This document shows, one piece after another, positions 970-64,000 of a stretch of DNA of 64,000 nt. Source of the stretch: Sugiyamaella lignohabitans (lineage: Eukaryota; Ascomycota; Dipodascomycetes; Dipodascales; Trichomonascaceae); assembly GCF_001640025.1 (NCBI RefSeq), contig NC_031671.1:124001-188000 (forward strand), read 5' to 3'. The first letter of the stretch is position 1. Each line of letters opens with the position of its first letter. Under the pieces are notes generated by a model that did no database searches, was not told the DNA's origin, and worked only from the letters and a program-made list of their open reading frames with translations. The position numbers were made by a program, and so were the translations under genes.

Positions 970-1029
970 GACTCGAGCGCAGCGAGAGAAGTTACGGGTT
1001 CTGGGGCGGAGCCCCAGCCGCCGGAGGCA
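970..1029 (-). repeat. GC hairpin element 1, type A
   Basis: Single type-A copy between UFL1-like and TAN1, with the TGCC end on the right. The head carries a GCGCAGC variant of the loop region and the linker is diverged (GTTACGGGTT). The rest of 781-1137 shows nothing else beyond the TAN1 3' flank. Confidence 0.85.
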
Positions 1030-1137
1030 ATGGCGAATTTCGAAAGTGATTTGGCTGATCTATGCGAATATGTATTAGAATGTATATAACTTAGTGTACA
1101 AGGACTCGGTATTTAACAGTAAGCATTTTATTTTTGC

Positions 1138-2187
1138 TCATTTTTTTTCAACTGTATCAGGTTTCTCGTCTTTCTTTTCCTTTTCAGATTCTTTAGACTC
1201 TTTTTGTGCCAACCCCTCCTTTTCAGCAGTCTGTTTTTTGACCTGAGCCTCGAATATCTGTTCCAAGTTGTATCTTTTCAGGGACTCAAATTCGCCGTCT
1301 ACTACAGCCATTCCTAAAGAGCTCTTGAAACAGTTGACAATGATGAGCCGGTCGTATTGCTTTAAATCGACTTTGTGACCATGGTTATTGCCGACAGTCT
1401 CAGCGACCTTGGGAATAATTGTTTCTCTATTCAAGATATGATGGTTTCGAATTTCGGTACGAATAGCGAACTTCAGTGGTTCCTGATCTTCAGCATGAAA
1501 GCTAGGTTTCAGAACAATTTTGGCTAACCGCTCGAGACCCGCTTCATTTGCAGTATCGGTCTGACTGACTGGGATCAGTCGCTGAGTATACCGTACTTTC
1601 TTAATGCTACTTCTTTGAGCATCGACACAAATAAACTTTACTAATTTGACGGGATCTATTGGCTTTTTCAGTCTGAAAAAGAGCACGCATTCGCATCCAA
1701 TGTCAATATGGGTGAATGGCTGAGAAACTTTGGCATCTTTGATCTCGCCTAATTCTTTTGCAATGGCCGCCTCAATATCATCAACACCTCCGTCCTCGAG
1801 ATCACCATCTTCGTCGTCATCCCCTTTTTCTGTCTTCCATGAATCTCCATATAACAGCTCGATGTACTAACGGTTAGTCTGATTCACTTGCCAGTTTGAA
1901 TACCAGAGCCTAATATCAGATTTCGTACTTACTTCAGATAGCAAATTTGTCATTTCATTCTTACATTGTGATTCGTGGCCTCTAACACATGTTACGTATA
2001 GTCCAAACCAGTTGGATTCTATATTCTGAGGACCAAGGTACTATCTCATTAGTATGTCGATCTTGGGAGCTGACAATTATACAGAAAATTCTACCGAGCC
2101 CTTTCCAAAACTTACTTTGTTCTTTTTGCTTTTCTTGCCCTTTCGGTCATCGCCCGAACCTCCTTTTCTCTTCTTATCCTCTACCAT
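1138..2187 (-). CDS. TAN1: tRNA acetyltransferase TAN1 (THUMP domain), three exons
   Basis: TAN1 acts with Kre33 to form N4-acetylcytidine at position 12 of tRNA-Ser and tRNA-Leu. I read exons 2116-2187, 1933-2040 and 1138-1866 (302 aa, close to the usual length of about 290). Donors are GTAAGT-like. Intron 2 ends with CTAACGGTTAG, a branch point directly before the acceptor. All junctions are in phase 0. The N-terminus is Lys-rich (residues 3-24). A segment with CVRGHESQC near residue 45 matches the start of the family. The THUMP core (HHILNRETII to FKSSLGMAVV) lies near residues 190-235. The C-terminus is a charged Lys/Glu tail. The introns are short (75 and 66 bp) and carry no GC element. 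Confidence 0.9.
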
Positions 2188-7074: not shown

Positions 7075-8002
7075 TATCCCATCGGACACGATATCGTGGG
7101 AACGGAGCGGGGTTATATATGGTCATTGTGTAGGCTTGCTCGCTCACTGTACAAACTCAAATATCAAGGGAGACAGCAACGAATTGGTTAAGTTACCATT
7201 AGCATGTCTTGATTTTTCGTACATAGAGTTCATAGACTTAGAGTTGGGTGACCTAGTATTGCCGCTAGAGTTGAGTCTCGATTAGCGAGTTTGGTAGACA
7301 GGTAGGGTCTTGTCAGGGAACAAACCAGACCACGCAGATGATCAGTAAAAGTGACGAGGATTATAAGGTTCATTCAACATAATAATTGGAACATTTAATA
7401 TTTGTAAAATTCCGTCGAAAAGCTAACTACACCTCAAATACGGTTAAAACAGAATTCGGAAACCTACAGAGCTTTCAAAGGTTGTCAGAACATACGAAGA
7501 GTCGGTGAGAAGGATAATACTAAAAAATTCTCAGTTTGAAACATTCAGGGGTCATCCGAAGCTAAGAAGGAACATGGCTGTGTATATTAAAGTTAGTGTT
7601 GAAACAGGTGGAATTTAGGCTCACTACTCAGGACCATGTATGAACCAGAAAATGGCATCATGCTGATGGCGTTTGACTGTTTAGAGTTGTACAGGTAGTC
7701 CCTTGGAAACGAAGTCTAAGATGACGTGGGGCTTTTTTTTTAGTTCTGAAAGAGCAGCGGTTGTGTGTCTACTGATGCTACCGAGCCGTCCAATACTTCC
7801 TTCGTGACAAAACTGAGCTTTAAACATTAGTAAACATACGAGGAACCTGACTTCTACAGATAACAGCGCTTTTGAGATACTAGTAGATCGACTCGAGCGC
7901 AGCGAGGGGAGCCACGGGATCTGGGGCAGAGCCCCAGCCGCCGGAGGCAGAGTCCATCTGTAAAAGCAAATCATTATATTACTAGGTAGAAAGTAGATTA
8001 GT
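7075..8002. other. Intergenic region between the RNase H1-like gene and prolyl-tRNA synthetase
   Basis: About 930 bp holding the upstream region of the RNase H1-like gene and the 3' flank of ProRS. Apart from GC element 2 I see no gene or clear motif. Open frames crossing 7681-8217 are created by the element and the ProRS antisense. Confidence 0.6.
7890..7949 (-). repeat. GC hairpin element 2, type A
   Basis: Single copy, about 50 bp past the ProRS stop, with the TGCC end facing ProRS. Confidence 0.88.
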
Positions 8003-10147: not shown

Positions 10148-10667
10148 AGCACAAACCAGCAGCAACACAGCACGCTACAAAAAACCCAAAAAAGCGATTC
10201 AAGTCGTCAACGCACTCACTCTAATCACGATCCTCATTTTTTACAAACATGCGGTGGTGAAATTTCACCCAGATCCAGCCCCTCGATATACGCATAAATC
10301 GCTGTACCGGGGTATTCGGGAAATGGAGGTCTGCCTCCGGCGGCTGGGGCTCCGCCCCAGACCTTGGTAGCTCCTCTCGCTTCGCTCGAGTCGGTTCTGA
10401 GGTCGGTTACAGCCATCTTCTGCGGAGAAGGAGCAATCATGCTCCGCCCCAGACACAGGAAGAAATGCCCCCCCCCTGGAGAGTGATCGCTGCTCAGGGG
10501 TAATCAGTCATCCAGAAACGGCAGCATCGCACGGCGCGGGAAAATTTCCCCGTTATCAGTCACTGTTTGACTCATGGAGAAGAGTACCCTTGCCCTGGTG
10601 AAATTTCATATTTAGAGTGGTGGTGAGAACCGAATCACGGAGAACCTACTGATCTCAACGTGAAACA
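10148..10667. promoter_or_regulatory. Shared divergent promoter of two aminoacyl-tRNA synthetases
   Basis: About 520 bp separate the two start codons, so both genes must draw regulation from here. Element 3 lies in the middle. A GTGAAATTTCA motif occurs near 10257 and again near 10598, one towards each gene. I see no certain TATA box. Confidence 0.5.
10332..10393 (+). repeat. GC hairpin element 3, type A
   Basis: Single copy inside the bidirectional promoter. Core stem intact, linker ACCTTGGTAG. Confidence 0.88.
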
Positions 10668-12402: not shown

Positions 12403-12454
12403 TGCCTCCGGCAGCCGGGCTCCGCCCGGACCTGGTTGTGCTCGCTTCGCGAGC
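12403..12454 (+). repeat. GC hairpin element 4, type C, CCGGGC stem variant
   Basis: The core stem is CCGGGC-TCC-GCCCGG: the T:A pair of the common form is replaced by C:G on both arms and the G/C run is one shorter on both arms. Head GCTCGC-TTC-GCGAGC is perfect. Confidence 0.88.
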
Positions 12455-12516: not shown

Positions 12517-12568
12517 TGCCTCCGGCGGCCGGGCTCCGCCAGGATCTGACTGTGCTCGCTTCGCGAGC
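12517..12568 (+). repeat. GC hairpin element 5, type C, partly decayed
   Basis: Direct repeat of element 4. The head is intact, but the right arm of the core stem has lost pairing (GCCAGG opposite CCGGGC). Confidence 0.82.
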
Positions 12569-13410: not shown

Positions 13411-13462
13411 CTCGAGCGAAGCTCGAGCCACGGGTCCGGGCGGAGCCCGGCCGCCGGAGGCA
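13411..13462 (-). repeat. GC hairpin element 6, CCGGGC stem variant with perfect CTCGAGC head
   Basis: Head CTCGAGC-GAA-GCTCGAG is a perfect hairpin, unlike the usual imperfect type-A head. The core CCGGGC-GGA-GCCCGG has the compensatory C:G pair. Confidence 0.87.
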
Positions 13463-15207: not shown

Positions 15208-15347
15208 TGCCTCCGGCGGCTGGGGCTCTGCCCCAGACCCCGTGGCTCCTCTCGCTCCGCTCGAGTCGTTACAGGGGGGGTCCCCAAGTCAACTCCTGCG
15301 AAGCAGGAGCTACGGGGTCTGGGGCAGCGCCCCAGCCGCCGGAGGCA
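15208..15347. repeat. Composite GC element 7/8 (A then B, inverted)
   Basis: Element 7 (15208-15268, +, type A) and element 8 (15293-15347, -, type B) face each other across a 24-bp spacer that contains GGGGGTCCCC. Confidence 0.9.
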
Positions 15348-15489: not shown

Positions 15490-15647
15490 TGCCTCCGGCG
15501 GCTGGGGCTCCGCCCCAGACCCCGCGGCTCCTCTCGCTCCGCTCGAGTCGGTTTCGCCATGGGTCCAGAAACTCAGGGGAATCCCCTGAAACCTCCTGCG
15601 AAGCAGGAGCCACGGGGTCTGGGGCAGAGCCCCAGCCGCCGGAGGCA
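15490..15647. repeat. Composite GC element 9/10 (A then B, inverted)
   Basis: Element 9 (15490-15550, +, A) and element 10 (15593-15647, -, B) with a 42-bp spacer holding the perfect palindrome TCAGGGGAATCCCCTGA. Confidence 0.9.
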
Positions 15648-15742: not shown

Positions 15743-17852
15743 TTATGAGATGGTGAAGTAGGCGTTCTGCTGGAACACGGTGTAGTCGTGGTCCGAGGTA
15801 TCGACACCGAGGTCGTCGCTGTTGTTCGCAATCAGACTCGGGTCTATCATGGACGTCGACGTCATCATTGTCGGTGCTGCTGTTGCGAGGTAATAGTTCG
15901 TTGACGAGTTCGTTACGCTATCGCCCCAGTAACTATTATTTCCGTTACTGTTGCTATTTTGGTTACTGGTGTTGCTGTTGGTGGTGGCGGTGGTATCCTC
16001 GAGTCCGCTATGTCGGTTAAATGAAGGAGGACTGAGAATGGGCATGCCGTTGGCAGCGAGGTTGCTGTTGTTTTCGTCGGTTGGCGAGCTACCGGATGAT
16101 TCTGAGTACGATCCGGGACTTGAGCTCATGCCTGCCAGGCTGTCAATAAACGAGAACGAACCCAGCAGTTGTTGAGTCTGTGGTGGGAGTTGTAATTGGA
16201 CTTGCATTTGTGGATGCGAATGTCGATGTGTCGACTGGTGAGGAGCCTGGCCCGGTACCAACCCACCACCTCCTCCGGCCATTAAACTACTATCGGACAT
16301 GGCCAAGGAGCTTCTCGTGTGTGTAACACTAGGATTAAAAAACAGACTCTGCTCGCGACCAGCAGCAACTGTTGCGTCCTCCACCCGTTTTGGCGCAGTC
16401 TGCGGTCTCGACTCTCCTAACAACCGGTCGTCGTCTCCACTGCTCAAATTGACAACCTTGATCGCATTCGACGTTCTCCTCTGTCGAGGTCGTCGGTTGC
16501 CTTTACATGTTTTCTTGTGTCGAACTAATAAATCCCTGTCTTTGTTAGTCTTGCCTGATCCAGGTCTCATTCTGGAGGATGGGGGTGCTGCCTCCGGCGG
16601 CTGGGCTCCGCCCAGACCCGTAGCTCCGCTTCGCGGAAAGCGTGGGGAGACGGAATCAAAGCAGGGAAGCGGCATCTCCTCGGGAATGATATTCTTCAAA
16701 AGATCTAACCAGTCTCGAACTGGGTCTGATTCACCCTTGTACTTACTTTCTGGCAAATGTCGCTGGACAGATGTCGCATCCAAATGGCCTTTCTCGTGTA
16801 TCTGTTTCAATGTTAGACACTGTTCCCTCGCTTGGCAATCACACAATCACTCCTAGACAGCTGGATAAACTAGCTCAAGCCGAATCAACTGGAGTCAAAT
16901 CGAGTCGGATCGACTCATTACAGGTCAACTCGGATCAAATCAAGTCGAGTCAGGTCAACTCAGACCCAGACCAGCTCATGTTGAATCAACTCGAATCGAG
17001 TCAAGACCAGTCAAGTCAACTCCACTCGATTCAAGTCATGTCAAGTCGAGTCGACTCCAACCAGGTCGAAATGAGCTGAATAGAGCCAAGTCGAATCGAT
17101 GAGATAACTCAAGTTCAAGTCAAGTCGATAAGAGTCTATTAGAATCGAGTCAACTAAAATCGATTCAACTTCAGTCGAGTTAAATCGAGAAAGAGTCGAG
17201 ACGAGTCCACTCGAATTAAGTCAAATCGACTTGAGTCACGTTTCAAGTAGGCTCGAGTTGATTCGTTTGAAGTCAAGTCGAGACGATTCAAGTCAAGTTA
17301 CGACAGGTCAACTCAACTGAACTCAACTCAATTCAACTCAACTCAAGCCAACTCAAAAGAACCCAACGTCAACTCAAATCAACTCGATTCTTCTCACACG
17401 ACTCACACGACTCACAAGACTCGAACTGCCAAAACTTCAACACTCAAATGACTCCCACTAGTACCTCACCATCACTCTAGAGTCGGACCCATGATTCATG
17501 ACCCGCTCGCTCGCTCACTCGCTCCCTACGGTCCGAGCTCCACACCCGAACCCCACGCAACTCCTGCGAAGCAGGAGCCACGGGGTCTGGGGCAGAGCCC
17601 CAGCCGCCGGAGGCAAGCCTCCTCCCCCCTGAATCTCGGAGATACGACCCCACCTGTGCCCCACTTACGTGATCTCTCATGCCTGGTCAAGTGCTCGAAC
17701 CGCTTGAACTGAGCGTTACACACGCTACAAATGGACGGTCTTTTTTTCGACGATTTTAACGCCGAGTTGGCTGGCGGCATGACATCGGTCATGATTTCTT
17801 CGTTTATCGACAGGTGTCGGGTGGTTGTTGGACGGTGTGTTTTTAAATCCAT
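15743..17852 (-). CDS. Two-finger C2H2 transcription factor (Adr1-like), three exons
   Basis: Exons 17669-17852, 16747-16801 and 15743-16535 join to 343 aa. Donors are GTAAGT, and both acceptors follow CTAAC or GACTAAC within about 10 bases. Splicing restores a tandem finger pair. Finger 1 has C42, C45, H58 and H62, with the H62 codon split by intron 1. Finger 2 has C70, C73, H86 and C90, so its last ligand is Cys. The 55-nt middle exon supplies the TRERPFGCDIC linker and half of finger 2. The two adjacent fingers near the N-terminus recall Adr1-type regulators. The rest is Asn/Ser/Gln-rich with no known domain. Intron 1 (867 bp) and intron 2 (211 bp) both contain GC elements, and intron 1 also a satellite. 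The frame is open upstream to a TTG at 17912, but the first ATG is 17852. Confidence 0.85.
16589..16638 (+). repeat. GC hairpin element 11, inside intron 2 of the C2H2 gene
   Basis: Shortened core CTGGGC-TCC-GCCCAG. The head TCCGC-TTC-GCGGA is a unique, perfectly paired variant. Confidence 0.85.
16885..17400. repeat. Degenerate AAGTCGA/TCGACTC satellite in intron 1 of the C2H2 gene
   Basis: About 500 bp composed almost wholly of drifting 5-10 bp words (AAGTC, GAGTC, AACTC, TCGAATCGAG) with many local palindromes such as GAGTCGACTC. It has no reading frame and no resemblance to the GC core, although GAGTCG is also the end of type-A elements. Confidence 0.75.
17561..17615 (-). repeat. GC hairpin element 12, type B, inside intron 1 of the C2H2 gene
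   Basis: The only type-B head without an obvious type-A partner. It lies about 50 bp inside the 5' splice site of the 867-bp intron. Confidence 0.87.
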
Positions 17853-18814: not shown

Positions 18815-18866
18815 TGCCTCCGGCGGCTGGGCTCCGCCCAGACCTGGTTGTGCTCGCTTCGCGAGC
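18815..18866 (+). repeat. GC hairpin element 13, type C
   Basis: Shortened core CTGGGC-TCC-GCCCAG on both arms, head perfect, G-run flank on the outer side. Confidence 0.87.
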
Positions 18867-19018
18867 GGCTGGGACCGTGGGGGAGGGGGTGATGGGGTTT
18901 TTGAGGCGATTTGGAGCTGCTCGGGGTTGGTGAAGTGAGCGCAGTCGGGTTCGATGGTGTAAGTACCCCTTGAGAAGTAGCCCCACTGGAGATTTTCAGG
19001 GGGTTTGGCCCGTCAGAA

Positions 19019-19163
19019 GCTCGCGAAGCGAGCACAACGGGGTCTGGGGCAGCGCCCCAGCCGCCGGAGGCAGTCTGATACCCCCACAGGCCGGGTTCAG
19101 GGGTCAGAAGCTCGCGAAGCGAGCACAACGGGGTCTGGGGCAGCGCCCCAGCCGCCGGAGGCA
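19019..19163 (-). repeat. Tandem GC elements 14 and 15, type C
   Basis: Elements at 19019-19072 and 19110-19163 are near-identical, same orientation. Both are preceded by GTCAGAA and followed by GTC, so a unit of about 91 bp was duplicated in tandem. Confidence 0.9.
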
Positions 19164-20374: not shown

Positions 20375-20435
20375 TGCCTCCGGCGGCTGGGGCTCCGCCC
20401 CAGACCCCGTGGCTCCTCTCGCTTCGCTCGAGTCG
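20375..20435 (+). repeat. GC hairpin element 16, type A
   Basis: Followed by GGCGTGGGGG, the flank shared by many solitary type-A copies. Confidence 0.88.
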
Positions 20436-20518
20436 GGCGTGGGGGTGTGGTCCGGGTAAAGGGTCCCATGCTCAGGGGGAATTGAAACTAACCCCTGAGT
20501 AAATAATCAACCCCTTTC

Positions 20519-20654
20519 GCTCGCGAAGCGAGCACAACCAGGTCTGGGCGGAGCCCAGCCGCCGGAGGCATGTCCGTCACCCCACTAACGGCTCCCTCGG
20601 TGGCTCGCGAAGCGAGCACAACCCGGTCTGGGCGGAGCCCAGCCGCCGGAGGCA
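20519..20654 (-). repeat. GC hairpin elements 17 and 18, type C, direct repeat
   Basis: Copies at 20519-20570 and 20603-20654, both with the shortened CTGGGC-GGA-GCCCAG core, in the 3' flank of PRE5. Confidence 0.88.
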
Positions 20655-23265: not shown

Positions 23266-23325
23266 GACTCGAGCGAAGCGAGAGGAGCCACGGGGTCTGG
23301 GGCAGAGCCCCAGCCGCCGGAGGCA
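23266..23325 (-). repeat. GC hairpin element 19, type A
   Basis: In the 3' flank of ERV29; the inner side continues into TTTCGTCGACGGGCCC, similar to composite spacers but without a B arm. Confidence 0.87.
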
Positions 23326-24341: not shown

Positions 24342-25573
24342 GGTTGTATGAAGATTATAAAGTTGATGTTGTCGCAAGAGTCGATGTATCGCTAGTGACA
24401 GTCGTGTTCTCGGGAGCTCGGAGTCACAAGTTCACTAAAAAAATATCAACAATTGAATTGAATCTGTCAAAACTAACCGAGAATCAGGTTCAATTGAACA
24501 AAGAAAATCCAATTGTGAAAAAAAAATTAATTATCAACGTCACTGTCAATTGTCCTAATGAGGTCGAGGTCCTGCTGCGAACCTGCTATCCCAGTCGCTG
24601 CTTATGAATATACCACCTGTACACAGATGAACCGGCAAGAAAACCACAAAAAAAAGAGTCGAAATTTCAGATGTCCAAAAACAAAAGCAAATCAATTGTC
24701 AACTACTGAAAAAATTGACCACAAAACTCACTGCACTTCCTCGATCCGTACCTGATGTTGACAGTCAATCTTAACACGTAAATCTGGAATGTACTATCAC
24801 GCTTCCTAACATCCCCGGTTAGGGTTGCCTCGGCATTAATTTGTCTGCCGTCCATGCACTTGCATATGCCGCACGCAGGGGTGCTGCAGGGATGCAGTGG
24901 GGGGCCGTGCCTCCGGCGGCTGGGGCTCTGCCCCAGACCCCGTGGCTCCTCTCGCTTCGCTCGAGTCGGGCGTGGGAAGTCCCGGTGTAAAATAGTACTG
25001 GTACAAATTAAGTTTAATCGAATTTTGGGAGCAGAAGAGTGGGTTTGTGACAATTCGAAGTGAACCATGAGCATGAATCTACATGACATTTTACTTCCGT
25101 ATATCCATTATCGGTCACAATTGAACCTATTGAAAGTCAAATTTTGCCGCAATTGTATCAACAGGAAAAGGAGAATGGATTCTGGCTCAAGAGATGGATT
25201 CAAATGAAAAATTAAGAAGAAAAGAAGAGCAATTTGTCAGTCGTCTGTCTCATTCTGGTCAATGCATGGCTCAATAACCTCGTATATTCTTTAAAATTAC
25301 AAGCAAAAGATCCAGTTGTTAGGTAATGCTTTGGATTCTTTAAAAGGATTATTCACAACTGGAAAATACCACCCAAATTCTCAGTTAAATAATTTAAGAG
25401 CAAATGGACCCTGGGCATCAGCTCACTTGACTGATTTGGTGGGGTAATCCGGTGGTCTGCCGCGGTTCAGGGGGATCGCCATTCTGATAAGCTGCTTGGC
25501 ATATATAAGCTCTAAAGTCCTATTTCTGATCTTGATCTCGATATAGAGACAGCTGAAAAGGCACTCTTGTATC
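24342..25573. other. Gene-free region between ERV29 and Moco sulfurase
   Basis: About 1.2 kb, AT-rich, with element 20. ATATATAAGC at about 25500 could be the TATA of the sulfurase, about 70 bp before its ATG. Confidence 0.55.
24908..24968 (+). repeat. GC hairpin element 20, type A
   Basis: Core loop TCT variant (CTGGGGC-TCT-GCCCCAG). Followed by GGCGTGGGAAGTCCC. Confidence 0.88.
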
Positions 25574-28809: not shown

Positions 28810-28949
28810 TGCCTCCGGCGGCTGGGGCTCCGCCCCAGACCCTGGTTGCTCTTGCTTCGCAAGAGTTGGCTGGGACCGCCGACGCAACGACTCGAGCGAA
28901 GCGAGAGGAGCAGCCAGGGTCTGGGGCGGAGCCCCAGCCGCCGGAGGCA
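28810..28949. repeat. Composite GC element 22/23 (B-variant then A, inverted)
   Basis: Element 22 (28810-28865, +) has head CTCTTGC-TTC-GCAAGAG, a compensated version of type B. Element 23 (28889-28949, -) is type A. Spacer 23 bp. Confidence 0.9.
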
Positions 28950-34664: not shown

Positions 34665-34680
34665 TGCCTCTGGCGGCTGG

Positions 34681-34715
<35 letters not shown>

Positions 34716-34933: not shown

Positions 34934-35155
34934 AAAGGAGCGAGTGGGTCTACATGGCCCGGCAGGAGGTGGTGGGAGACGGATGAATGGCCGTTGGAGG
35001 GGGAGGGGTCTGGCCCATGCGTTGACCAGCAGATTACCTCACAGTACAAGCCTAGCGGGAAGGTGCAGTGAACGGCACGGTTGACACGACATCAGACGTT
35101 CCGGCCGGTTCCATGCGGTTCTGTTAATTCTCCGGTACCTCTCTCCGAGGGGTCA

Positions 35156-35297
35156 GCCTCCGGCGGCTGGGGCTCCGCCCCAGACCCTGGTTGCTCCTCT
35201 CGCTTCGCTCGAGTCGTTTCAGGGGGGACTGCCCGGTAAAACTCCTGCGAAGCAGGAGCAACCCGGGTCTGGGGCGGAGCCCCAGCCGCCGGAGGCA
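35156..35297. repeat. Composite GC element 32/33 (A then B, inverted)
   Basis: 35156-35216 (+, A) and 35242-35297 (-, B), 25-bp spacer with GGGGGGACTGCCC. Confidence 0.9.
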
Positions 35298-37509: not shown

Positions 37510-37570
37510 TGCCTCCGGCGGCTGGGGCTGCGCCCCAGACCCCCTGGCTCCTCTCGCTTCGCTCGAGTCG
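37510..37570 (+). repeat. GC hairpin element 34, type A
   Basis: Core loop TGC variant (CTGGGGC-TGC-GCCCCAG), followed by GGCGTTGACGGTCCC. Confidence 0.88.
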
Positions 37571-37991: not shown

Positions 37992-38181
37992 TAGTACATG
38001 GAACGGCACAATTAAAATATTGACCCCCGACGCCCGACTCGAGCAAAGCGAGAGGAGCAGCGGGGTCTGGGGTAGTACATGGAACGGCACAATTAAAATA
38101 TTGAACTGACCCCCGACGCCCGACTCGAGCAAAGCGAGAGGAGCAGCGGGGTCTGGGGCGGAGCCCCAGCCGCCGGAGGCA
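37992..38181 (-). repeat. Tandem duplication carrying a truncated and a complete GC element 35
   Basis: Unit 1 (37992-38072) and unit 2 (38073-38158) begin TAGTACATGGAACGGCAC and end GTCTGGGG. Unit 2 has 5 extra bases (ACTGA). The element is cut at 38072 in unit 1 and complete (38122-38181) only in unit 2. Both have head loop GCAAAGC. Confidence 0.9.
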
Positions 38182-40541: not shown

Positions 40542-40680
40542 TGCCTCCGGCGGCTGGGGCGCTGCCCCAGACCCCGTAGCTCCTGCTTCGCAGGAGTTTC
40601 TGGGGAGTCCCCCCGCAACGACTCGAGCGAAGCGAGAGGAGCAACCAGGGTCTGGGGCGGAGCCCCAGCCGCCGGAGGCA
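40542..40680. repeat. Composite GC element 36/37 (B then A, inverted)
   Basis: 40542-40596 (+, B, core loop GCT) and 40620-40680 (-, A). The 23-bp spacer contains GGGG-AGT-CCCC. Confidence 0.9.
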
Positions 40681-41005: not shown

Positions 41006-41066
41006 TGCCTCCGGCGGCTGGGGCTCCGCCCCAGACCCCGTGGCTCCTCTCGCTTCGCTCGAGTCG
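41006..41066 (+). repeat. GC hairpin element 38, type A
   Basis: Flanked by GGGGTG on the outer side and GGCGTGGGGAGCCC on the inner side. Confidence 0.9.
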
Positions 41067-41740
41067 GGCGTGGGGAGCCCGTAAGAGCGAGTTTTTTGGG
41101 AATATGAGGGTGATTAAGACGGTATGTGGTGGTTTGGCGGGGTTTGGCGGGGGTGAGTTGGGTGGGTAGGAGGGGGAGAAGCGGTTTTCTTTGGCTGAAT
41201 GGGAGTAGGAGAGGTGTTTGGTGTGTTCAGCTGGGTCATTTCAGGGGTAGTTTCTGACGTTCAGGTATTATTACTTGTAATGGATGTGGATCGGTAGATC
41301 AGTGTCTTAACCGCAATAGGCGAGCGACCTCGGTCAGTGTGATATCAAGCCTGGCAGTCACTGTATCGCGACAAATTAATAATTAATGGTCCCAACTGCC
41401 CCGACTGGTGGTTGCTGCTGCTGCCGTTGCCCCCCTTGCCACCCTTAAGCAGCCAGTTTGGCAGCAGAAGGTTGCCAGGGAGGGCCAAGGGGGTTAAACT
41501 ACCGGCTGGTTGTCCTGCTAACAACGACCGAGCAGCCAGGCTCTAGCTAAGCCCATGATGCGGGAGCAGCAGGAGAGGCACGGTTCTGCAGCGTTTCCAC
41601 CTATATAAACGCGCCATCGTGTCGCCAACCGAAAACATACAAAACACAAGAAAACAACACATCAGCACTTTTTCGACCATTGCAATTGCACCGGAAATCG
41701 CTTGTTTTTTTGCCCGTTAAACCACCACACACACCACACA

Positions 41741-42356
41741 ATGGATAAACTTCGTGAAGTAAGTATTAAAAACATGATCCCCCACGCCCGACTCGAGCGA
41801 AGCGAGAGGAGCCAGGGGGTCTGGGGCGCAGCCCCAGCCGCCGGAGGCAAATCCCCCCCCCCCCCCCTCACACAACTAACGAGACCAGAAAATCAACTCT
41901 CTCAAACTCGAGACTGAGGCTGCTCAAGAGAAAGCCGACGAGGCTAATGATAAGGTCAAGACCCTGGAACAAGAGAACTTGCAAAAGGATCAAGAGATCG
42001 CTTCATTGACCCACAAGAACAGTTTGTTGGAGCAAGAAGTCGAGGAATTGGAGTCGAAATTGAACGATGCCAAGGGAGCTGCTGAAGAGGGAGCTGCTCA
42101 TGGTACTCAAAACGAGTCGCTCACTAAGAAGATTTCTCTGTTAGAAGAGGAATTGGAGAACTCGGACAAGAATTTAAGAGAGACTACTGAGAAGCTGCGC
42201 CAGACCGATGTTAAGGCCGAGCATTTCGAGCGCAAGGTCACTTCTCTTGAGCAAGAGAGAGACGACTGGGAGAAGAAGTTTGAAGAGCTGTCTGAGAAAT
42301 ACTCTGCTGCCAAGGCCGAGTTGGACGAGATCACCCAGCAATTGGAGAGTATCTAA
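41741..42356 (+). CDS. TPM1: Tropomyosin, two exons
   Basis: Coiled-coil protein that coats formin-made actin cables. Exon 1 is only 18 nt (41741-41758, MDKLRE); exon 2 is 41889-42356. Total 161 aa, the length of yeast Tpm2. Heptads run throughout (KINSLKLETEAAQEKADE..., SLLEEELENSDKNLRETTEKLR, ELDEITQQLESI). The intron has GTAAGT, branch CTAAC at 41876-41880 and acceptor at 41888. It carries GC element 39 and a run of 16 C. Without the intron the protein would lose its N-terminal MDK-R-E start, which is essential for end-to-end assembly in the family. Confidence 0.95.
41789..41848 (-). repeat. GC hairpin element 39, type A, inside the tropomyosin intron
   Basis: Core loop CGCAG variant. It is followed after AAT by 16 C (41852-41867), so element plus C-run fill most of the 130-bp intron. 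Confidence 0.92.
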
Positions 42357-42669: not shown

Positions 42670-42834
42670 TGCCTCCGGCGGCTGGGGCGCTGCCCCAGAC
42701 CCCGTTGTGCTCGCTTCGCGAGCTTTGGGAGGGTTCAGATGGGGAGAATAGTGAGAGGGATATCCCGCGAATCGACTCGAGCGAAGCGAGAGGAGCAACC
42801 AGGGTCTGGGGCGGAGCCCCAGCCGCCGGAGGCA
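42670..42834. repeat. GC hairpin elements 40 (type C, +) and 41 (type A, -)
   Basis: 42670-42723 and 42774-42834, 50 bp apart. Upstream flank is GGGGTGGGGGGTG. Confidence 0.88.
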
Positions 42835-45219: not shown

Positions 45220-45710
45220 TGGAAGACATTTGCCATAGTTTAGAGATAGTAGTCTGGCGGTGTGCCTCGGGCAGCAGGACTCCCCTGGATTCAGCTGCCG
45301 TGTCTTAAGAGTCAGCTATTAAACTTTCACGCTCTTCATGCCACAAACAAATGTTACTGTCAAACTTTTACCAATACCAAGAGTAGATCTCTGACCAGCC
45401 GATTAAGCAAGTCAGAGTTGTTTGGGGTCAAAGCTCCAGATGCTAGAGCTGGGGTAGTAGTAGTAGAAACGGCAATCTCGATCTAGCTGTGCTTTGCGAG
45501 GGGTCGTTTCACAACCGAGGCTTCAGAGCTGGCTGACTACTGAGTATTTATTATCGTCAGCCATTGATTATGGCCCTAGAGCGTCTCAAGCAAGACGACA
45601 GCGATAAATGTGATACAGCACATCTGGTAGCTGAATAATGAACCCTTTGTTCGCTTATTCATTCGAATTTCGAATAGCCAGAGCGAAAAATGGTCTTCGA
45701 ACAGCAGACG

Positions 45711-46010
45711 GGGAGCTAGACAGAACTAGACAGGGAACTAGACAGGGAACTAGACAGAACTAGACAGGGAACTAGACAGGGAACTAGACAGGGAACTAGA
45801 CAGAGAACTAGACAGGGAACTAGACAGGGAACTAGACAGGGAACTAGACAGGGAACTAGACAGGGAACTAGACAGGGAACTAGACAGGGAACTAGACAGG
45901 GAACTAGACAGGGAACTAGACAGGGAACTAGACAGGGAACTAGACAGGGAACTAGACAGGGAACTAGACAGGGAACTAGACAGGGAACTAGACAGGGACC
46001 TAGACAGGGA
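45711..46010. repeat. 13-bp tandem minisatellite
   Basis: About 23 copies of GGGAACTAGACAG. A few early copies lack GG (11 bp) or read GAGAACTAG; the last ones decay (GGGACC, GGGAGCAGATAG). Interior copies are almost identical, pointing to recent expansion. The unit is not a multiple of three and no long frame crosses it. Confidence 0.97.
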
Positions 46011-46270
46011 GCAGATAGGAATTAGACATAGAATAATATAATCAACACGACCATGCTCACCGCAGCAAGTGTCTCAGAAGCGCCTTCTATAAAGCACATA
46101 CAACCAAAAATAGCTGGAATTAACAGACAAATATACTGTGACACAGGTTCATATCACTATTCGATGACTGGCCACTCGTCTCCACGAGAAGACGGCTCTC
46201 GATCGCAAACCACCCAAGTGCCGAACACTGGGGAGACCGAACCACACCGTCATTCTTTTCACCCCTCAAG

Positions 46271-46415
46271 TGCCTCCGGCGGCTGGGGCTCCGCCCCAGA
46301 CCCCGTAGCTCCTGCTTCGCAGGAGATTTCTGGAACCGTGGGGTCCCCACGTAACGACTCGAGCGCAGCGAGAGGAGCAGCGGGGTCTGGGGCGGAGCCC
46401 CAGCCGCCGGAGGCA
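46271..46415. repeat. Composite GC element 42/43 (B then A, inverted)
   Basis: 46271-46325 (+, B) and 46356-46415 (-, A, GCGCAGC loop). The 30-bp spacer contains the palindrome GTGGGGTCCCCAC. Confidence 0.9.
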
Positions 46416-47064: not shown

Positions 47065-47292
47065 TGCCTCCGGCGGCTCTGCCCCAGACCCCGTGGCTCT
47101 GCCCCAGACCCCGTGGCTCTGCCCCAGACCCCGTGGCTCCTGCTTCGCAGGAGATTGCTAGGACTGTGGGGGTTTAGCAGCGACTCGAGAAGATATAGGA
47201 GATTTCAGGGACCAGTGGGACCCCCTCGCAACGACTCGAGCGAAGCGAGAGGAGCAGCGGGGTCTGGGGCGGAGCCCCAGCCGCCGGAGGCA
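47065..47292. repeat. Composite GC element 44/45 (B then A) with internal triplication
   Basis: Element 44 (47065-47153, +) holds three head-to-tail copies of GGCTCTGCCCCAGACCCCGT. The left arm of the core stem (CTGGGGC) is missing, so the stem cannot form. Element 45 (47233-47292, -) is intact. An extra GCGACTCGAGAAGA remnant lies at about 47180. Confidence 0.88.
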
Positions 47293-48998: not shown

Positions 48999-51900
48999 AT
49001 GACACAACAATCTGCGAACCAATACGACCACAAGGCGCTGCCATCGCACTTCCTGGGTCTCAACTCGCTAGAAGTTGCCCCCAAATCCAAGGTCAAGGAC
49101 TTTGTTCAAGAACAGGGCGGCCACACCGTCATCACATCGGTAAGTCTAGCCGCACAATTACCCCTGAGCCAGGGGGTGTGCCTCCGGCGGCTGGGGCTCC
49201 GCCCCAGACCCCGTAGCTCCTGCTTCGCAGGAGTTGCTGGGACCGTCGACGTCCGACTCGAGCGCAGCGAGAGGAGCAGCGGGGTCTGGGGCGGAGCCCC
49301 AGCCGCCGGAGGCAGATCCCCCTCCCCAGTACAGGCACTAACAGTGGCAGGTTTTGATTGCTAATAATGGTATTGCTGCTGTGAAGGAGATTCGTTCGGT
49401 CCGGAAGTGGGCCTATGAGACGTTTGGCGACGAGAGAGCTATCTCGTTCACAGTTATGGCCACTCCTGAGGATTTGGAGGCCAATGCCGAGTATATTCGT
49501 ATGGCCGATCAGTATGTCGAGGTGCCTGGTGGAACCAATAACAATAACTATGCCAATGTCGAGCTGATTGTCGATATTGCCGAGAGAACCAATGTTCAGG
49601 CTGTTTGGGCCGGTTGGGGTCATGCTTCGGAAAACCCCCATTTGCCAGAATCGTTGGCTGCTTCGCCAAAGAAGATTGTTTTTATTGGACCTCCTGGCTC
49701 GGCAATGAGATCTTTGGGTGATAAGATCAGTTCGACCATTGTTGCTCAACACGCCAAAGTTCCTTGTATTCCCTGGTCCGGTACTGGTGTTGACCAGGTT
49801 TCTGTTGATAAGGAGTCTGGTCTTGTTTCTGTTCCTGACGATGTATATATTAAGGGTTGTTGTACTACCCCAGAAGACGGTCTTGAGAAAGCCAAGAAGA
49901 TTGGCTTTCCTGTCATGATTAAAGCTTCGGAAGGTGGTGGTGGTAAAGGTATTCGTAAGGTCGAGCACGAGGATAAATTCATTTCTCTGTATAAGCAAGT
50001 CGAAGCCGAAATTCCTGGTTCGCCTATCTTTATCATGCAATTGGCCGGTAACGCCAGACATTTAGAAGTACAATTGTTGGCGGATCAGTACGGTAACAAT
50101 ATTTCATTGTTCGGAAGAGATTGTTCGGTTCAAAGACGTCACCAAAAGATTATTGAAGAGGCTCCTGTCACTATTGCCAGACCCGATACTTTCACTGCTA
50201 TGGAGAAGGCTGCTGTCCGTTTGGGTCAATTGGTCGGTTATGTCTCTGCCGGTACTGTCGAGTATTTGTACTCTCACGCAGATGATAAGTTCTATTTCTT
50301 AGAATTGAACCCTCGTTTGCAAGTCGAACATCCTACTACTGAAATGGTCACTGGTGTTAATCTTCCAGCAGCCCAATTGCAAATTGCCATGGGTATTCCT
50401 CTTCATAACATTCGTGACATTCGTTTGTTCTACGGAGTTGATCCCAAGACTCAAACTCCTATTGATTTCGACTTTTCCACTGAACTCAGTAAGAAGTCGC
50501 AAAGACGTCCTGTTCCCAAGGGTCACACCACTGCCTGTAGAATTACTTCCGAGGATCCTGGTGAGGGCTTTAAACCTTCCAGTGGTATGATGCACGAACT
50601 TAACTTCAGATCGTCTTCTAATGTCTGGGGTTATTTCTCGGTTGGTAATCAAGGTGGTATCCACTCATTTTCCGACTCGCAATTCGGTCACATTTTCGCG
50701 TTTGGTGAGAATAGACAGGCCTCTCGTCAACACATGGTTGTTGCTTTGAAGGAGTTGAGTATTCGTGGTGATTTCCGTACCACTGTTGAATATTTGATTA
50801 AGTTGCTGGAGACTCCTGATTTCGAGGACAATACCATCACCACTGGTTGGTTGGATGAGCTTATTTCCAAGAAACTTACTGCCGAGAGACCTGATCCTTA
50901 TTTGGCTGTTATTTGTGGTGCCGTCACCAAGGCTCATGTCCAATGTGAGGGTATTATCAACGACTACAAGACTTCTCTTGAAAAGGGTCAAGCTCCTTCT
51001 AAAGAGACCCTCAAGTCGTTGTTTGCTATTGATTTCATCTACGAGGGTGAGAGATACAAGTTCACTGCCACCAGATCTTCTCAAGATTCTTATACTTTAT
51101 TTATTAACGGATCCCGTGTTGATGTTGGTGTCCGGTCGCTTTCTGATGGTGGTTTGCTTGTGTCCATTGGTGGCAAGTCTCACTCTGTTTACTGGAAGGA
51201 AGAAGTCGGTGCTACCAGAGTATCTGTTGATGCCAAGACCTGTCTTTTGGAGGTCGAGAACGACCCCACCCAATTGAGAACCCCATCTCCTGGTAAGCTT
51301 GTTCGTTTCTTGGTTGAGAGTGGCGAGCGTGTCAAGGCTGGTCAACCTTACGCTGAAGTCGAGGTCATGAAAATGTACATGCCTTTGGTTGCTGCCGAGG
51401 ACGGTATTGTTCAACTTATCAAGCAACCCGGATCCACGTTGGAAGCTGGTGACATTCTTGGTATACTTGCTCTTGACGACCCCAGCAGAGTCAAGCACGC
51501 CAAGCCTTTTGAGGGTCAATTGCCTGAGTACGGTCCTAGCAGTCTCATTGGTAACAAGCCTTCTCAAAGATTCTATGTTTTGCATCACATTTTGGAGAAC
51601 ATTTTGTCTGGTTTCGACAATCAAGTTGTTATGAACAGCACTCTTAAGGAGTTAATTGAGGTCTTGAGAAATCCTGAATTGCCATATGGTGAATGGTCTC
51701 AACAAGCCTCTGCTTTGCACAGCAGATTACCTGCTAAGCTGGATGCTAATCTGTCAGGAATTGTTGACAAGGCCAAGCAACGTAAAGCCGAGTTCCCTGC
51801 CAAGCAGCTTTTGAAGGCCATTGAGAAGGCTGCTCCTGAAAAGGCCAGTGAAGCTGGTATCTACCAGTCGGTTGTTGAACCTCTTACCAAAATCTGTGTT

Positions 51901-58000: not shown

Positions 58001-58833
58001 GGCCGATCTTTGCGTGTCAGAAAATATTTTTGTCTGTGGATTTGATCCAGCTCCACCAGCTGACTGTATTTCAGAATTGTGAACTCTTGTGCCGTTGCTT
58101 GTTGTTACAGCGGTACTGTTTTTAGAGATATTATATCCATTACTTGCTAATGAGTTGTCGGTAGGCCGTGATGAAGACTCACTAGTAGTCGCTGTAGTCT
58201 TTGCTGTTGTATCGTACAGCTCTGCCAGCCACCAGCGTAAATTGTCGGATATAATCCAGTGAATAAACCAAAGTTCCTGATCAATCAGTGTACAAAACTT
58301 CAAAATTTCAACGATGACCCTAGCGTCTGGCTCCGTTATCTTATCAGACCCTGAATGTCAACCGCAACCGTCAAAATAGTCCCTTAACAGTTTCCAATTC
58401 GATATGTGGGGGTATTGACGTAATTCTGACTGCAACGTCCTTCACCCGTCAAAATACCCATTCAACCCGGTTTCATGGGGGGAGCAGTATAGCGCCGCAC
58501 ATCAATCAAGGGCCCGTAAGGGTCCTCAACTGTTATTATTTTTCTCGTTTTACAATTAAAAAGACATTTTCTATAAATAAAAGTGCTCAATTGAGGTGTC
58601 TGTTTGGTCCTGACTTTCGAGCGAAAGTCAGGGAGCGGGGACATGTGTGGTTGTGGACCTGTGCCTCCGGCGGCCGGGCGCTGCCCGGACCCGTTGTGCT
58701 CGCTTCGCGAGCTTCTTCGGGGGAAATGCAATTGAATTGATACGATCACACGCAATTATGTGTCATGGAATTGTTGGTGACAGTTGTGACTGGCTTTTTC
58801 ATTTTCTGGTGTCATTGGTTCCTTTTGACGTTG
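58001..58833. other. Upstream region of the Ert1-type gene
   Basis: Open reading without ATG to 58303 (possible extra exon), then plain intergenic DNA with element 48. Confidence 0.5.
58662..58712 (+). repeat. GC hairpin element 48, type C, CCGGGC stem variant
   Basis: Core CCGGGC-GCT-GCCCGG with compensatory change on both arms. The only element between ACC1 and the aminopeptidase, a 10.5-kb stretch. Confidence 0.9.
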
Positions 58834-60299: not shown

Positions 60300-63200
60300 A
60301 TGTCTTTGTACGTACGGGGATCGTGGCTGATTCCGAGCGGCAATTTTCACCGCGGGGTTAGCAGGTGGTGCTTTAGCAGGGTAGCGGTGCCGTGCCTAGC
60401 CCGCCAGCCCTGCAACAGATCCCTGTCCACCGCAGCGGCACCAGCAGCAAATGCCACTTCGAGCCCATCTGGCTATAAAAGACCATTGATCTCCAGATTC
60501 GACAGTAAAAACTACCCTACCACTTCAACTCAATTTGTTAGAAACTGTTCTTGCGCACGTCACAGACCATCTCTAACAGCAATTGACCAAGGAGAAGATA
60601 CAAACATGTGTTCTACAGTGCAACCAGGCGGTGCCAGTGGCTCTGGCCGCCAGACCCTCCCCACCAACGTCAAGCCTGTCCACTATAATGTGACTCTGGA
60701 ACCCGATCTCGAGAAGTTCACTTTCACTGGCCAGGTCGTCATTGAGTAAGTTTTTATGGGGGAGATGACATGCCTCCGGCGGCTGGGGCTCCGCCCCAGA
60801 CCCCGTGGTGCTCGCTTCGCGAGCGGCGTGGGGTTCCCGATCCAAGGGGATCGTATGGTGCCACTTTAGTTACAATGAGTTGTGCTATTTGTGGAGTTTT
60901 AGTAGCTCGCGAAGCGAGCACTGCGGGGTCTGGAGCAGCGCCCCAGCCGCCGGAGGCAACACCGACCCAACAGGATCTAACCAGACAGCTTGGATGTTAA
61001 AGAGGCTACCAAAAGTGTGGTGGTGAACAGTTTGGAGCTGGAATTGAGCAATGTTAAGGTCGAGAATAATGGCAGCAGTCAGGCTGCTTTGAAGACCGAG
61101 TTCGATGAGGATTCTCAGACCGCTAAGTTCGAGTTTGAACACGAATTGAAGGCCGGATCAAAGGCCCATTTGAGCATTGACTTTGTTGGTGAGCTGAATG
61201 ATAAGTTGGCTGGATTCTATCGTAGTGTTCATACTGATGAGAATGGCAAGACTAGAGTCGTTGCTACTACTCAAATGGAGGCCACTGACTGTAGAAGAGC
61301 CTTCCCTTCGTTCGACGAGCCTGCTTTGAAGGCCACTTTTGACATTACTTTAGTGGCTGACAAGGAGTTGACTGCTTTGTCCAACATGGATGTTAAGGAG
61401 GAGAAGATTCTTGAATCTGGAAAGAAAGCTACTTCGTTTAATACCAGTCCTGTTATGAGTACTTATTTGGTTGCTTTCATTGTTGGCGAATTGAGTTATG
61501 TTGAGAGCAACTATTTCCGAGTTCCAGTTAGAGTCTACGCTACTCCTGGTATGGAGGACCGTTGCAAGTTCTCTGCTGAGCTTGGTGCTAGAACTTTGGA
61601 GTTCTTTGAGAAGAAGTTCGACGTTCCATATCCTTTGCCCAAGATGGATATGGTTGGTATCCACGATTTCAGTGCTGGTGCTATGGAGAACTGGGGTCTT
61701 GTGACTTACAGAGTGGTTGATTTGTTGTTTGACGAAGAGAATGATAATGCTAACACCAAGCAAAGAGTTGCTGAGGTTGTTCAACACGAATTGGCTCACC
61801 AATGGTTCGGTAACTTGGTTACCATGGACTGGTGGGATGGACTTTGGTTGAACGAGGGTTTTGCTACTTGGATGAGTTGGTACAGTTGTAATTCGTTCTA
61901 CCCAGACTGGAAGGTCTGGGAGACTTATGTTGGTGACAATTTACAATCGTGTTTGGCTTTGGACTCTTTAAGATCTAGTCACCCTGTTGAAGTGCCTGTG
62001 AAAAGAGCCGATGAGGTTAACCAGATTTTCGACGCTATCTCTTACTCAAAGGGTTCTTGTATCGTCAAGATGGTCTCTATCATTCTTGGTGAAGATACTT
62101 TCATTAGAGGTATTAGTCGCTACTTGAAGCGTCACCAATACGGCAACACTGAGACTGGCGATTTGTGGAAAGCCTTGAGTGAAGAGTCTGGTCTCGATGT
62201 CGCTGGTATTATGGATACTTGGACTTCCAAGGTCGGTTTCCCAGTTTTGACTGTTAGTGAAGATGGTAACACCATTCACGTGCGACAAAACAGATTCTTG
62301 GCTACCGGTGATGTAAAGCCCGAAGAAGATACTACTATCTATCCTTTGTCGCTTGCTTTACGTAACAAGTCTGGCAAGGTCGAGAATATCAATCTCGATA
62401 AGAGAGAGATTTCTATCGATTTGTCGAAATACGATGCTTCTTCTGCTTTTTACAAGCTCAATGCTGACCAAGCTGGTCTTTACAGAACTTTATACCCACC
62501 AGAGCGCGTTGTTAAGCTCAGTCAAGCTGGTGCTGATAATCTTTTGTCAGTCGAGGACCGTGTGGGACTCATTGCTGACACTGCCTCGCTCAGTGTTTCC
62601 GGTTATCAAAAGACCTCTGCTCTTCTTGACCTGATTTCGCTCTGGAAGAACGAAAAGGAGCCTAATGTGTGGATGGAGATGCTTAAGCGATTTGGTGCTA
62701 TCCGCAAGACCTGGATCTTCCAACCTGAATCTACCACTGATGCCCTTAAACAGCTTCTTGGCGAGCTTGTTTTGCCCAAGGTTAATGAGTTAGGCTGGAA
62801 TTTCCATGCTGAAGAGTCGCTTCTTCAACAACAGTTGAAGGGAACTCTTTTCAGTTCCGCTGTTTCTAGCGAGAATGATAAGATTGTTAAGGAAGCTCTC
62901 AGTCTGTTTGAGAAGTATGCTAGTGGAGATGCCAAAGCTGTCCACCCTAATATCAGAGCTGCTGTATTTGGCGCTGCCGCCAAATATGGTGATGAAGCCA
63001 CTTGGCAACGTCTTGTTGATGTGTATACATCGCCCAAGTCTTCTGTTGAGGGTTTAGCTGCCATCACTGCTTTGGGTGGTGCTAAGAACGTCGATTTACA
63101 AAAGAAGACAATCAAGCTCACTCTTGACGGAACTGTCCGTTCTCAAGATGTTTTCTATGTTCTCAACGGTCTTTCGACTAACGTTGCTGGTATTCAAATT

Positions 63201-63482
63201 CTCTGGGACTGGCTCCGTGAAGAGTGGGATGCTATCACTAAGAAGTTCCCTGCTAATATGGGTTTGCTTCTTAATATCATTTATATTTGCACTGGCTCGC
63301 TCGCTACCCCTCAACATCTGAAGGAATTTGACGAATTTTTCAAGTCCAAGGATACTAAGGGTTTCGACAAGGCTGTATCTATTTCTAGAGACCGTCTTGT
63401 CTCACGCATTGCCTGGCTTGAGCGTGACGTCAAGGACGTCGAAGAATGGCTTGCCAAGCATCAATCTTCTACCAAGCTTTAA
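60300..63482 (+). CDS. APE2: M1 zinc aminopeptidase (Ape2/Aap1 type), two exons
   Basis: Removes N-terminal residues from peptides. Exons 60300-60745 and 60989-63482 give 979 aa. The intron has GTAAGT and CTAACCAGACAG, and splices GTC-ATT-GA to C-TTG-GAT (VIDLDV). The catalytic domain carries GAMENWGLVTYR and the zinc motif HELAHQWFGN (first His about 415) with the downstream Glu in NEGFATW. Residues 1-102 look like a mitochondrial presequence (Arg-rich, FSRVAVPCLARQPCNRSLST). A second in-frame ATG at 60606 (MCSTVQPGG) gives a cytosolic-type protein of 877 aa, matching Aap1 length. The ERAP1-like C-terminal domain fills residues about 620-975. The intron holds GC elements 49 and 50. Confidence 0.95.
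60771..60958. repeat. GC hairpin elements 49 and 50 (both type C, inverted) in the aminopeptidase intron
   Basis: 60771-60824 (+) and 60905-60958 (-), 80 bp apart. Element 50 has one unpaired base in the core (CTGGAGC opposite GCCCCAG). Confidence 0.9.
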
Positions 63483-64000
63483 GCAGTTGATTGCTTTAAA
63501 AATGTAAAAATGTTTTAATATGATTTATTTGGTAATACAATAACCAGTTTTTGTGAATCTGACTGTTTGCAACATCGTGATCTTGCTCGGCGAGAGGATA
63601 TTGAAAGCCACTTCTGGGGCTCTGCTGTACGGTTGTCTGTAAGCGTTTGTAACTGAGCGTAAAGATAAGTTATTTCATATTGTCGACTGGTGATACCAAC
63701 TCTTAGCATTTGCTTTGGTCAGAGGGGTGCATAGTTTGTTAACCAGATCTGAATAGTGGGGACTTGCGAGCCTTGACTGGGTCTCCGTTTCAGAAATCTG
63801 CCCTTTCTGGGGAAGGGATGCTGCCTCCGGCGGCTGGGGCTCCGCCCCAGACCCCATTGCTCCTCTCGCTGCGCTCGAGTCGGTCCTGTCCACGGTCCGT
63901 CCCAGCGGCCTCCTGCGAAGCAGGAGCAACTAGGGTCTAGGGCGGAGCCCCAGACACCGGAGGCAGCACCTGCCCCCCCTAAGAACTACCTTGTCACCGA
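63483..64000. other. Right edge, intergenic
   Basis: 3' flank of the aminopeptidase and composite element 51/52; no gene supported. Confidence 0.6.
63822..63965. repeat. Composite GC element 51/52 (A then B, inverted), right arm decayed
   Basis: 63822-63882 (+, A, head loop GCTGCGC) and 63910-63965 (-, B). Element 52 has CTAGGGC in the stem and CAGACACCGGAGG at the outer end. Spacer 27 bp. Confidence 0.86.

Follow-up and report, generated by a model that had tools for sequence, protein, structure and literature searches.

Short hairpin repeats in the gaps of a yeast nuclear genome: build, loop code and inverted heterodimers of a REP-like family

What kind of element places short GC-rich hairpins in nearly every gap between the genes of a yeast nucleus, and how might it have spread? 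The question is raised by a stretch of Sugiyamaella lignohabitans DNA, positions 124001-188000 of contig NC_031671.1 (C3), all 64,000 nucleotides of which are referred to here as the window; the genome comprises 15,932,016 bp in four contigs, each extending to at least 0.9 Mb, so that none of them seems to be mitochondrial, and the window copies are nuclear. A sequence-only reading of the window had proposed a nuclear repeat family of very high density without an open reading frame (ORF) of its own, a proposal that would fall if copies were absent elsewhere. We found the exact head of the repeat, TGCCTCCGGCGG, 5,858 times across the assembly (2,942 and 2,916 by strand, with 0 and 2 for a reversed control), and an 18-mer of the element 2,695 and 2,683 times (control 0). 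The family is therefore assembly-wide, and that objection does not apply. The reading we prefer, to which we give about an even chance, is that of a very abundant non-coding, non-autonomous dispersed nuclear element that resembles the bacterial REP and REPIN repeats and spread through folded single-stranded DNA.

Element-level results derive from the window and a 200-kb region of a second contig (C1:190001-390000), which together hold 197 elements, one per about 1.3 kb. The finder accepted the head with at most two mismatches, and the genome-wide head count is of exact matches; 10 of 207 raw calls were discarded as reversed palindrome reads or false, and loci L001-L008 (C1:28-118 kb) were excluded from the counts. 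In the window the finder returned 54 matches, compared with 3.29 ± 1.87 (maximum 9) in 100 shuffles. Of these, 51 are full elements, one (34665) is a copy interrupted by a run of C, and two (45263 and 56524) are chance matches; counting a truncated copy at about 38035-38072, this agrees with the 52 copies plus one truncated copy reported earlier. No window match to Rfam exceeded the gathering score.

On the head strand, the unit consists of TGCCTCCGGCGG, a first hairpin, a linker and a terminal hairpin. It measures ~60-80 bp as a solo, and ~138 bp when two units form an inverted composite. The first hairpin reads CTGGGGC-3 nt-GCCCCAG in 154 of the 197 elements, CCGGGC/GCCCGG in 8 and CTGGGC/GCCCAG in 7. 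The earlier claim that all window copies share the CTGGGGC stem was too strict, because eight have a shorter GGGC stem and the copy at 47065 has lost its 5' arm. The linker is mostly ACCCCGN or ACCCTGG. Terminal hairpins fall into type A (CTCCTGC-TNC-GCAGGAG), B (CTCTCGC-TNC-GCTCGAG), C (GCTCGC/GCGAGC), D (CTCGAGC/GCTCGAG) and E (CTCCGC/GCGGAG). In 91 non-B copies, pairs 3-6 of the terminal stem are paired in 86, 86, 91 and 87 cases and change on both sides (TA/CG/AT, CG/TA/GC, CG/TA and TA/GC/CG, respectively). Sliding the 3' side by one base as a control leaves 62, 82, 10 and 74 (+1) or 0, 37, 61 and 56 (-1), so that pairs 3 and 5 have the stronger support for pairing and pairs 4 and 6 the weaker; the copies are related, and these cells are therefore not independent events.

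The loop of the terminal hairpin follows a code. It reads TNC in 171 of the 197 elements, and in 3,296 of 3,399 type-B copies genome-wide. By position, type-B loops (n = 79) have T in 79, then T in 49, G in 19, C in 7 and A in 4, then C in 77 and T in 2; a conserved stem with a variable loop thus holds, and in type B just the centre base of the loop varies. On the bottom strand of type B, GA faces GA within the stem, and tandem GA/GA is of the kind that forms sheared pairs. A TNC loop means that the opposite strand carries C-GNA-G, and we find there the full minihairpin, in which C-G closes a GNA loop on a stem of at least two G-C pairs. According to an excerpt of PMC4686876, such loops, when G-C pairs close them, form extraordinarily stable, nuclease-resistant DNA minihairpins. 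In loop-aligned counts (n = 170; 27 of the 197 were set aside because a hairpin was degraded or misread), the first hairpin has TCC in 112 copies (GGA on the other strand), TCT in 26 and GCT in 13, the latter two non-GNA; terminal hairpins thus obey the rule strictly, and first hairpins more loosely. Short of proof, this loop code speaks for a constraint on the folded DNA of one strand.

The units are joined by an equally regular rule. A spacing of 100-200 bp separates 52 of 77 neighbours in +- order, compared with 2 of 77 in -+ order, and the +- spacing peaks at 133-143 bp, which corresponds to a composite with its heads outward around a centre near GGGACCGTCGACGG. Genome-wide there are 1,096 A-B patterns (544 and 552), against 4 A-A and 5 B-B, where each place was counted once because the latter patterns are self-complementary. 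The 57 +- pairs at 90-260 bp comprise 30 A-B, 6 B-E, 2 B-C, 2 C-C, 1 A-A, 0 B-B and 16 half-untyped; random pairing, with 51 A and 79 B in the sample, would give about half homodimers. Alignment (34 of the 44 inverted pairs at 125-165 bp, the other 10 being atypical) and folding reveal non-coding composites with near-perfect inverted ends and a recurring centre. Both strands of two composites were modeled as single-stranded DNA; each folds over its whole length, with energies of -70 to -76 kcal/mol and z scores of -11 to -16. The linker types of the two halves are associated (14, 9, 1 and 10; Fisher p 0.008, 34 composites), which suggests that composites were copied as units, with linker-linker pairing as an alternative cause. 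Solos, defined as having no +- partner at 120-260 bp (83 of 197), are in many cases not just halves, because their tail differs: a sequence like TCGGGCG ends 13 of 33 type-B solos, compared with 3 of 46 type-B composite halves.

The elements of the window are as follows; ORF calls were mechanical and ignored introns, so that distances to genes are approximate.
972-1029, minus strand: solo, type B.
7894-7949, minus: solo, type B (hairpin call shortened), sense, 55 bp 3' of the stop of a prolyl-tRNA synthetase-like ORF.
10332-10390, plus: solo, type B.
12403-12454, plus: solo, short first stem, type C, sense, 36 bp past an AsnRS-like ORF.
12517-12568, plus: solo, short first stem, type C.
13411-13462, minus: solo, short first stem, type D (perfect CTCGAGC/GCTCGAG), sense, 42 bp past a stop.
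15208-15347: composite B-A (15208 plus, 15347 minus).
15490-15647: composite B-A (15490 plus, 15647 minus).
16589-16637, plus: solo, short stem, in the probably non-coding N-terminal extension of ORF 15743-16675.
17556-17615, minus: solo, type A.
18815-18867, plus: type C, short stem, with a wide inverted partner (19072, minus) at 255 bp.
19019-19163, minus: two tandem type C, 91 bp apart (19019-19072 and 19110-19163), the latter sense, 45 bp past a stop.
20375-20432, plus: type B, with a wide inverted partner (20570, minus) at 193 bp.
20518-20654, minus: two tandem type C, 84 bp apart.
23268-23325, minus: solo, type B, sense, 46 bp past a SURF4-like ORF.
24908-24965, plus: solo, type B, with a GGGCGTGGG tail.
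27805-27862, minus: solo, type B, predicted intronic, antisense to gene 25574-28039.
28810-28949: composite A-B, single-hairpin fold at -76.3 kcal/mol as DNA (plus strand).
31384-31437, plus: solo, type C, sense, 119 bp past a polyubiquitin ORF.
31790-31946, minus: two tandem type C, 103 bp apart.
33579-33790: wide inverted pair B-C.
34540-34829: cluster of B (plus), the copy broken by a run of 33 C (34665, plus) and A (minus).
35155-35297: composite B-A.
37510-37567, plus: solo, type B, sense, 118 bp past an inositol-phosphate synthase ORF.
38035-38072, minus: truncated copy, made by an 86-bp tandem duplication.
38124-38181, minus: solo, type B, sense, 35 bp past a kinesin ORF.
40542-40680: composite A-B.
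41006-41063, plus: solo, type B; 41006-41076 and 27792-27862 are complementary at 99%.
41792-41849, minus: solo, type B.
42670-42834: inverted pair C-B (the script misread its left hairpin, which was read from the sequence).
46271-46415: composite A-B.
47065-47292: pair A-B, left half rebuilt by a 20-bp tandem expansion, GGCTCTGCCCCAGACCCCGT.
49179-49314: composite A-B, -71.2 kcal/mol as DNA (plus strand), z -12.9.
58662-58712, plus: solo, type C, short stem.
60771-60958: wide pair C-C, the plus copy sense, 22 bp past a 149-aa ORF.
63822-63965: composite B-A, head of the right copy degraded.

In the broken copy, the 33 C at 34682-34714 stand in place of the first stem, by slippage or an assembly fault. 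The internal expansion at 47075-47139 consists of three tandem 20-bp GGCTCTGCCCCAGACCCCGT units, has a similar case at C1 offset 186053, and is a sign of slippage on the hairpin. The window also contains simple repeats of other kinds: a 12-bp unit, AGACAGGGAACT, in 27 tandem copies outside ORFs of at least 200 aa (45706-46028), and a degenerate region with a 5-bp phase and GAGTCAAGTC-like words (16872-17385).

How the copies relate to their surroundings bears on how they were dispersed. A 100% identical, length-matched partner exists elsewhere for 80 of 186 elements (the other 11 of the 197, with no length-matched partner or with cut flanks, being left out). In pairs at least 98% identical, left flanks agree at 0.276, compared with 0.284 for random flanks, and right flanks at 0.316, a figure without a random control. 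Mobility is likely, but the evidence for it, near-identical copies amid dissimilar flanks, is indirect. From -14 to -4 the left flank is rich in G, and a T precedes GCCTCC in 96% of 170 elements. The outer flanks of composites have no inverted similarity beyond this G-richness (p 0.25), so that it looks like a preference rather than a part of the palindrome.

The elements avoid ORFs. Only 9 of the 197 lie in ORFs of at least 200 aa, two in the window and seven on C1, where coverage predicts about 101 (24.8 in the window and 76.6 on C1). Of the two in-ORF copies of the window (of 51), one is intronic by its splice signals and the other probably non-coding. The former, at 27805-27862, lies between GTATGT and TACTAACAG in a gene with MOSC and aminotransferase-V domains. 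Occupation of almost every gap, in both orientations, stands for the window, where 16 of 19 gaps of at least 100 bp between ORFs of at least 200 aa hold a copy; C1:190001-390000 is less evenly occupied (37 of 61 such gaps). A Pfam scan of 19 window ORFs found ordinary yeast genes, three without a family and no transposase among them. The closest named relatives of the SURF4-like protein are in Trichomonascus vanleenenianus (69%) and Blastobotrys adeninivorans (65%). Of the solos that follow a stop codon within 150 bp, 20 are sense and 2 antisense, and the 5' side has 2 in all. Composites were left out of this count, as by symmetry a head faces the gene on either side. Across the regions sampled, GC-poor stretches tens of kb long hold few or no elements.

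To look for relatives, a pattern with 31 fixed core bases was compared with prokaryote genome contigs, and matched one stretch, L032, of a Desulfovibrionaceae metagenome-assembled genome. The repeat there lies directly behind an ORF, which looks like argG, in sense, and an inverted half begins after it but is interrupted where the contig stops. Two contigs of a viral collection (L030 and L031, metagenome 3300048597) carry inverted composites of 128 and 130 bp; the ORFs of L030 look like those of a phage or gene transfer agent. Whole genomes were sampled for the head in the phylum of that Desulfovibrionaceae genome. Of the 247 genomes, 45 contain the head followed by NNNG, but 40 of these have just one or two copies and 22 of the 247 contain the reversed control, so that few genomes stand out (head against control: G041 26/0, G214 9/1, G001 7/0, G037 4/0 and G054 3/0). 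In the family of G041, which includes G001, 53 of 79 genomes have it, at 788 places against 12 for the control, with a maximum of 179 exact heads per genome. In 12 of 12 G041 stretches a hairpin with an unchanged starting base comes after a head, and an (A)ACCCC or AATCCCC linker after the hairpin, in some with a mismatch; four of the 12 contain additional tandem heads without hairpin and linker, and in seven a same-strand frame of at least 80 codons ends 1-12 nt before the first head, these frames being mechanical calls of which several are cut by stretch ends. In 8 further stretches, picked for TGGG after the head, a hairpin follows 8 of 9 heads. Head identity reflects the choice of query, and the independent evidence is the hairpin, the linker and their position. 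Over the first 35 bases, bacterial stretch L319 and the window element at 15208 have two differences, at positions that pair with each other. From the sequences, common descent, transfer and convergence would all be compatible with these matches. A REP-like repeat headed TGCCTCCGGCGG may possibly have entered the yeast nucleus, gained GNA minihairpins and the A-B form, and reached about 6,000 copies via machinery common to both domains; we regard this as a tentative and rather doubtful scenario.

Other matches were set apart. L029 and most viral-contig matches are probably due to chance: among the matches listed, a hairpin follows 31 of 255 heads, compared with 92 of 2,590 random positions. 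Plasmid and phage matches, mostly partial (first hairpin and ACCCC; Streptomyces, Roseivivax and a microvirus), were set aside as possible convergence. CTGGGGC-NNN-GCCCCAGACCCC occurs without the head in a microvirus (L052, MH992176.1), a Streptomyces plasmid (L053, NZ_CP108097.1) and a Roseivivax plasmid (L054, NZ_CP090159.1), the first-hairpin module being more widespread than the head. Five viral contigs (L128, L132, L138, L113 and L182) have the 13-base head and hairpin with other linkers (ACGATCA, ATCGATC and GAAAGAGC). In the published texts examined, the head or its complement lies in coding sequence or a primer.

The unit of spread in our preferred reading would be either a solo, comprising head, first hairpin, ACCCC linker and terminal minihairpin, or an A-B heterodimer with its heads outward. 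Single-stranded DNA would be the copied form, namely the folded strand with C-GNA-G at nearly every terminal loop, and the head a putative recognition end. Insertion would take place in G-run-rich gaps and behind gene ends, with the enzyme supplied in trans. We infer active or recent mobility, and kinship with the bacterial repeats. Several observations count against this reading. Near-identity could alternatively stem from gene conversion or selection; conservation of the head is partly built in by the two mismatches that the finder admits at most; first-hairpin loops are often non-GNA, and the loops of the bacterial repeats are not GNA as a rule. The sense bias of solos, moreover, is the best argument for a rival 3'-end function. 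No clear target duplication, and hence no insertion footprint, was found relative to shuffles in 43 composites and 96 other elements; around the 96, shared substrings are in slight excess (5.33 against 5.00, sd 0.11), which tandem copies may cause. Genome-wide transposase profiles were Y1_Tnp (PF01797), with 0 matches in this genome and positives in 5 of 14 control genomes, and Helitron (PF14214), also with 0 matches, which matched no control genome either and is hence uninformative. Nor did self-comparison of 264 kb, with elements masked, yield an empty site in paralogous DNA. It gave one useful duplication, inverted, 2.4 kb long and 93% identical (C1 offsets 131.9-134.6 kb and 185.9-188.9 kb; L009-L028 joined), which holds a hypothetical ORF of about 400 codons and offers no empty site because elements are present in each of its copies and a composite contains the point at which the homology starts.

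The alternative that survives best, unlikely as we judge it, is a functional 3'-end element, whose transcribed hairpins would end transcription or protect mRNA 3' ends and whose copies would be kept alike by selection and gene conversion. It would account for the sense solos behind stop codons and their scarcity 5' of genes, and the bacterial relatives also seem to trail genes in sense (7 of 12 G041 stretches, and L032). The bias also fits insertion into DNA opened at transcription ends. Against a 3'-end function, 57 elements lie in divergent gaps, one sits antisense in an intron, and a 36-kb stretch of C1 has genes and zero copies. In sense copies, moreover, the constrained GNA loop sits opposite the mRNA strand.

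Capture by host repair, which we consider improbable, would dispense with a dedicated enzyme: minihairpins too stable for degradation would be duplicated through template switching and caught at breaks in G-rich, break-prone DNA, and homodimers would be missing since near-perfect palindromes get deleted. Consistent with this are the nuclease resistance of GNA hairpins (excerpt of PMC4686876), the G-rich flank with no clear target duplication, the slippage seen in the 20-bp tandem expansion and the 86-bp duplication, and the 93% segmental duplication that terminates within a composite. Element density also tracks base composition, with counts per 10 kb rising with GC content, both that of ORFs (rho 0.84) and that of gaps after masking of the elements (rho 0.91; 26 bins, excluding the last 4 kb of the window). 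An exact 12-base head recurring 5,858 times, however, exceeds what a merely stable hairpin needs and therefore suggests specific recognition, and chance capture would not be expected to yield a recurring A-B centre.

No less improbable are remnants of a cut-and-paste transposon, akin to miniature inverted-repeat transposable elements (MITEs), in which the halves would be terminal inverted repeats and the solos broken copies. The composites, with near-perfect inverted ends, a recurring centre, no coding capacity and linked halves, have the appropriate form. Target duplication is not clear, however, the tails of many solos distinguish them from mere halves, and no autonomous relative was seen, the genome-wide profiles covering Y1_Tnp and Helitron only, the latter without a positive control. 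A nuclear offshoot of mitochondrial GC clusters is very improbable, because size class, hairpin form and loop-over-stem variation are as in GC42 but GC42 has a putative AG target duplication (both per an excerpt of PMC4478555), the yeast element shows none, and the sequence matches found are bacterial, mitochondrial genomes not being among those searched.

New here are the TNC/GNA loop code, the A-B heterodimer rule, the sense solos near stops and the bacterial heads. The literature searched, as far as the excerpts of it extend, yielded no nuclear family so dense and so rule-bound in its build, and a description in the genome paper (Bellasio et al. 2016) is possible. About 1,100 heterodimers and 3,400 minihairpins constitute a natural mutation experiment on what folded single-stranded DNA requires in a eukaryotic cell. 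If the bacterial kinship is real, the repeat would represent a rare non-coding mobile element common to both domains.

Bacteria are known to carry REP-like palindromes, and mitochondria GC clusters, whose copy number is far lower than that of the yeast element. Minihairpins of the d(GCGNAGC) kind are known as synthetic and isolated natural motifs; terminal hairpins of types A, B, C, D and E all have the motif on their bottom strand, and the excerpted literature searched yielded no genome family built on it. MITEs resemble the element in being non-coding with terminal inverted repeats, and differ in that no fixed-length target duplication was found here. The earlier analogy with mitochondrial GC clusters stands for shape, in that GC42 and its kin are short GC-rich hairpins whose loops vary more than their stems and whose amplification mechanism is unsettled (excerpt of PMC4478555); it fails on compartment, sequence and target duplication, and the closer matches found are bacterial. 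Those bacterial repeats, headed TGCCTCCGGCGGC and carried by a bacterial family with a Desulfovibrionaceae metagenome-assembled genome among its members and by the two viral-collection contigs, share an identical 13-base head, the same hairpin start and an (A)ACCCC or AATCCCC linker, often have a second hairpin, and form inverted composites in L030 and L031, with the start of one in L032. They differ in number (at most 179 exact heads per genome in the 79 searched, compared with 5,858 in the yeast), in more variable first stems and in a second hairpin unrelated in sequence. From the REP families with GTAG or CGTC tags, the element is distinguished by its head TGCCTCCGGCGG, which has neither tag, by its nuclear location, second terminal minihairpin and GNA loop code, and by the lack of a RAYT-type Y1 transposase among the genome's profile matches. 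Because the tag and transposase tests failed, it is not a member of the defined REP families, and constitutes a REP/REPIN-like repeat in the nucleus, outside them. With REP, BIME and REPIN it shares short intergenic palindromes, high copy number and inverted dimers. Heterodimers are preferred in most REP families as in the yeast element, a preference that 'has no obvious explanation' (excerpt of PMC3733652) and that becomes testable in yeast.

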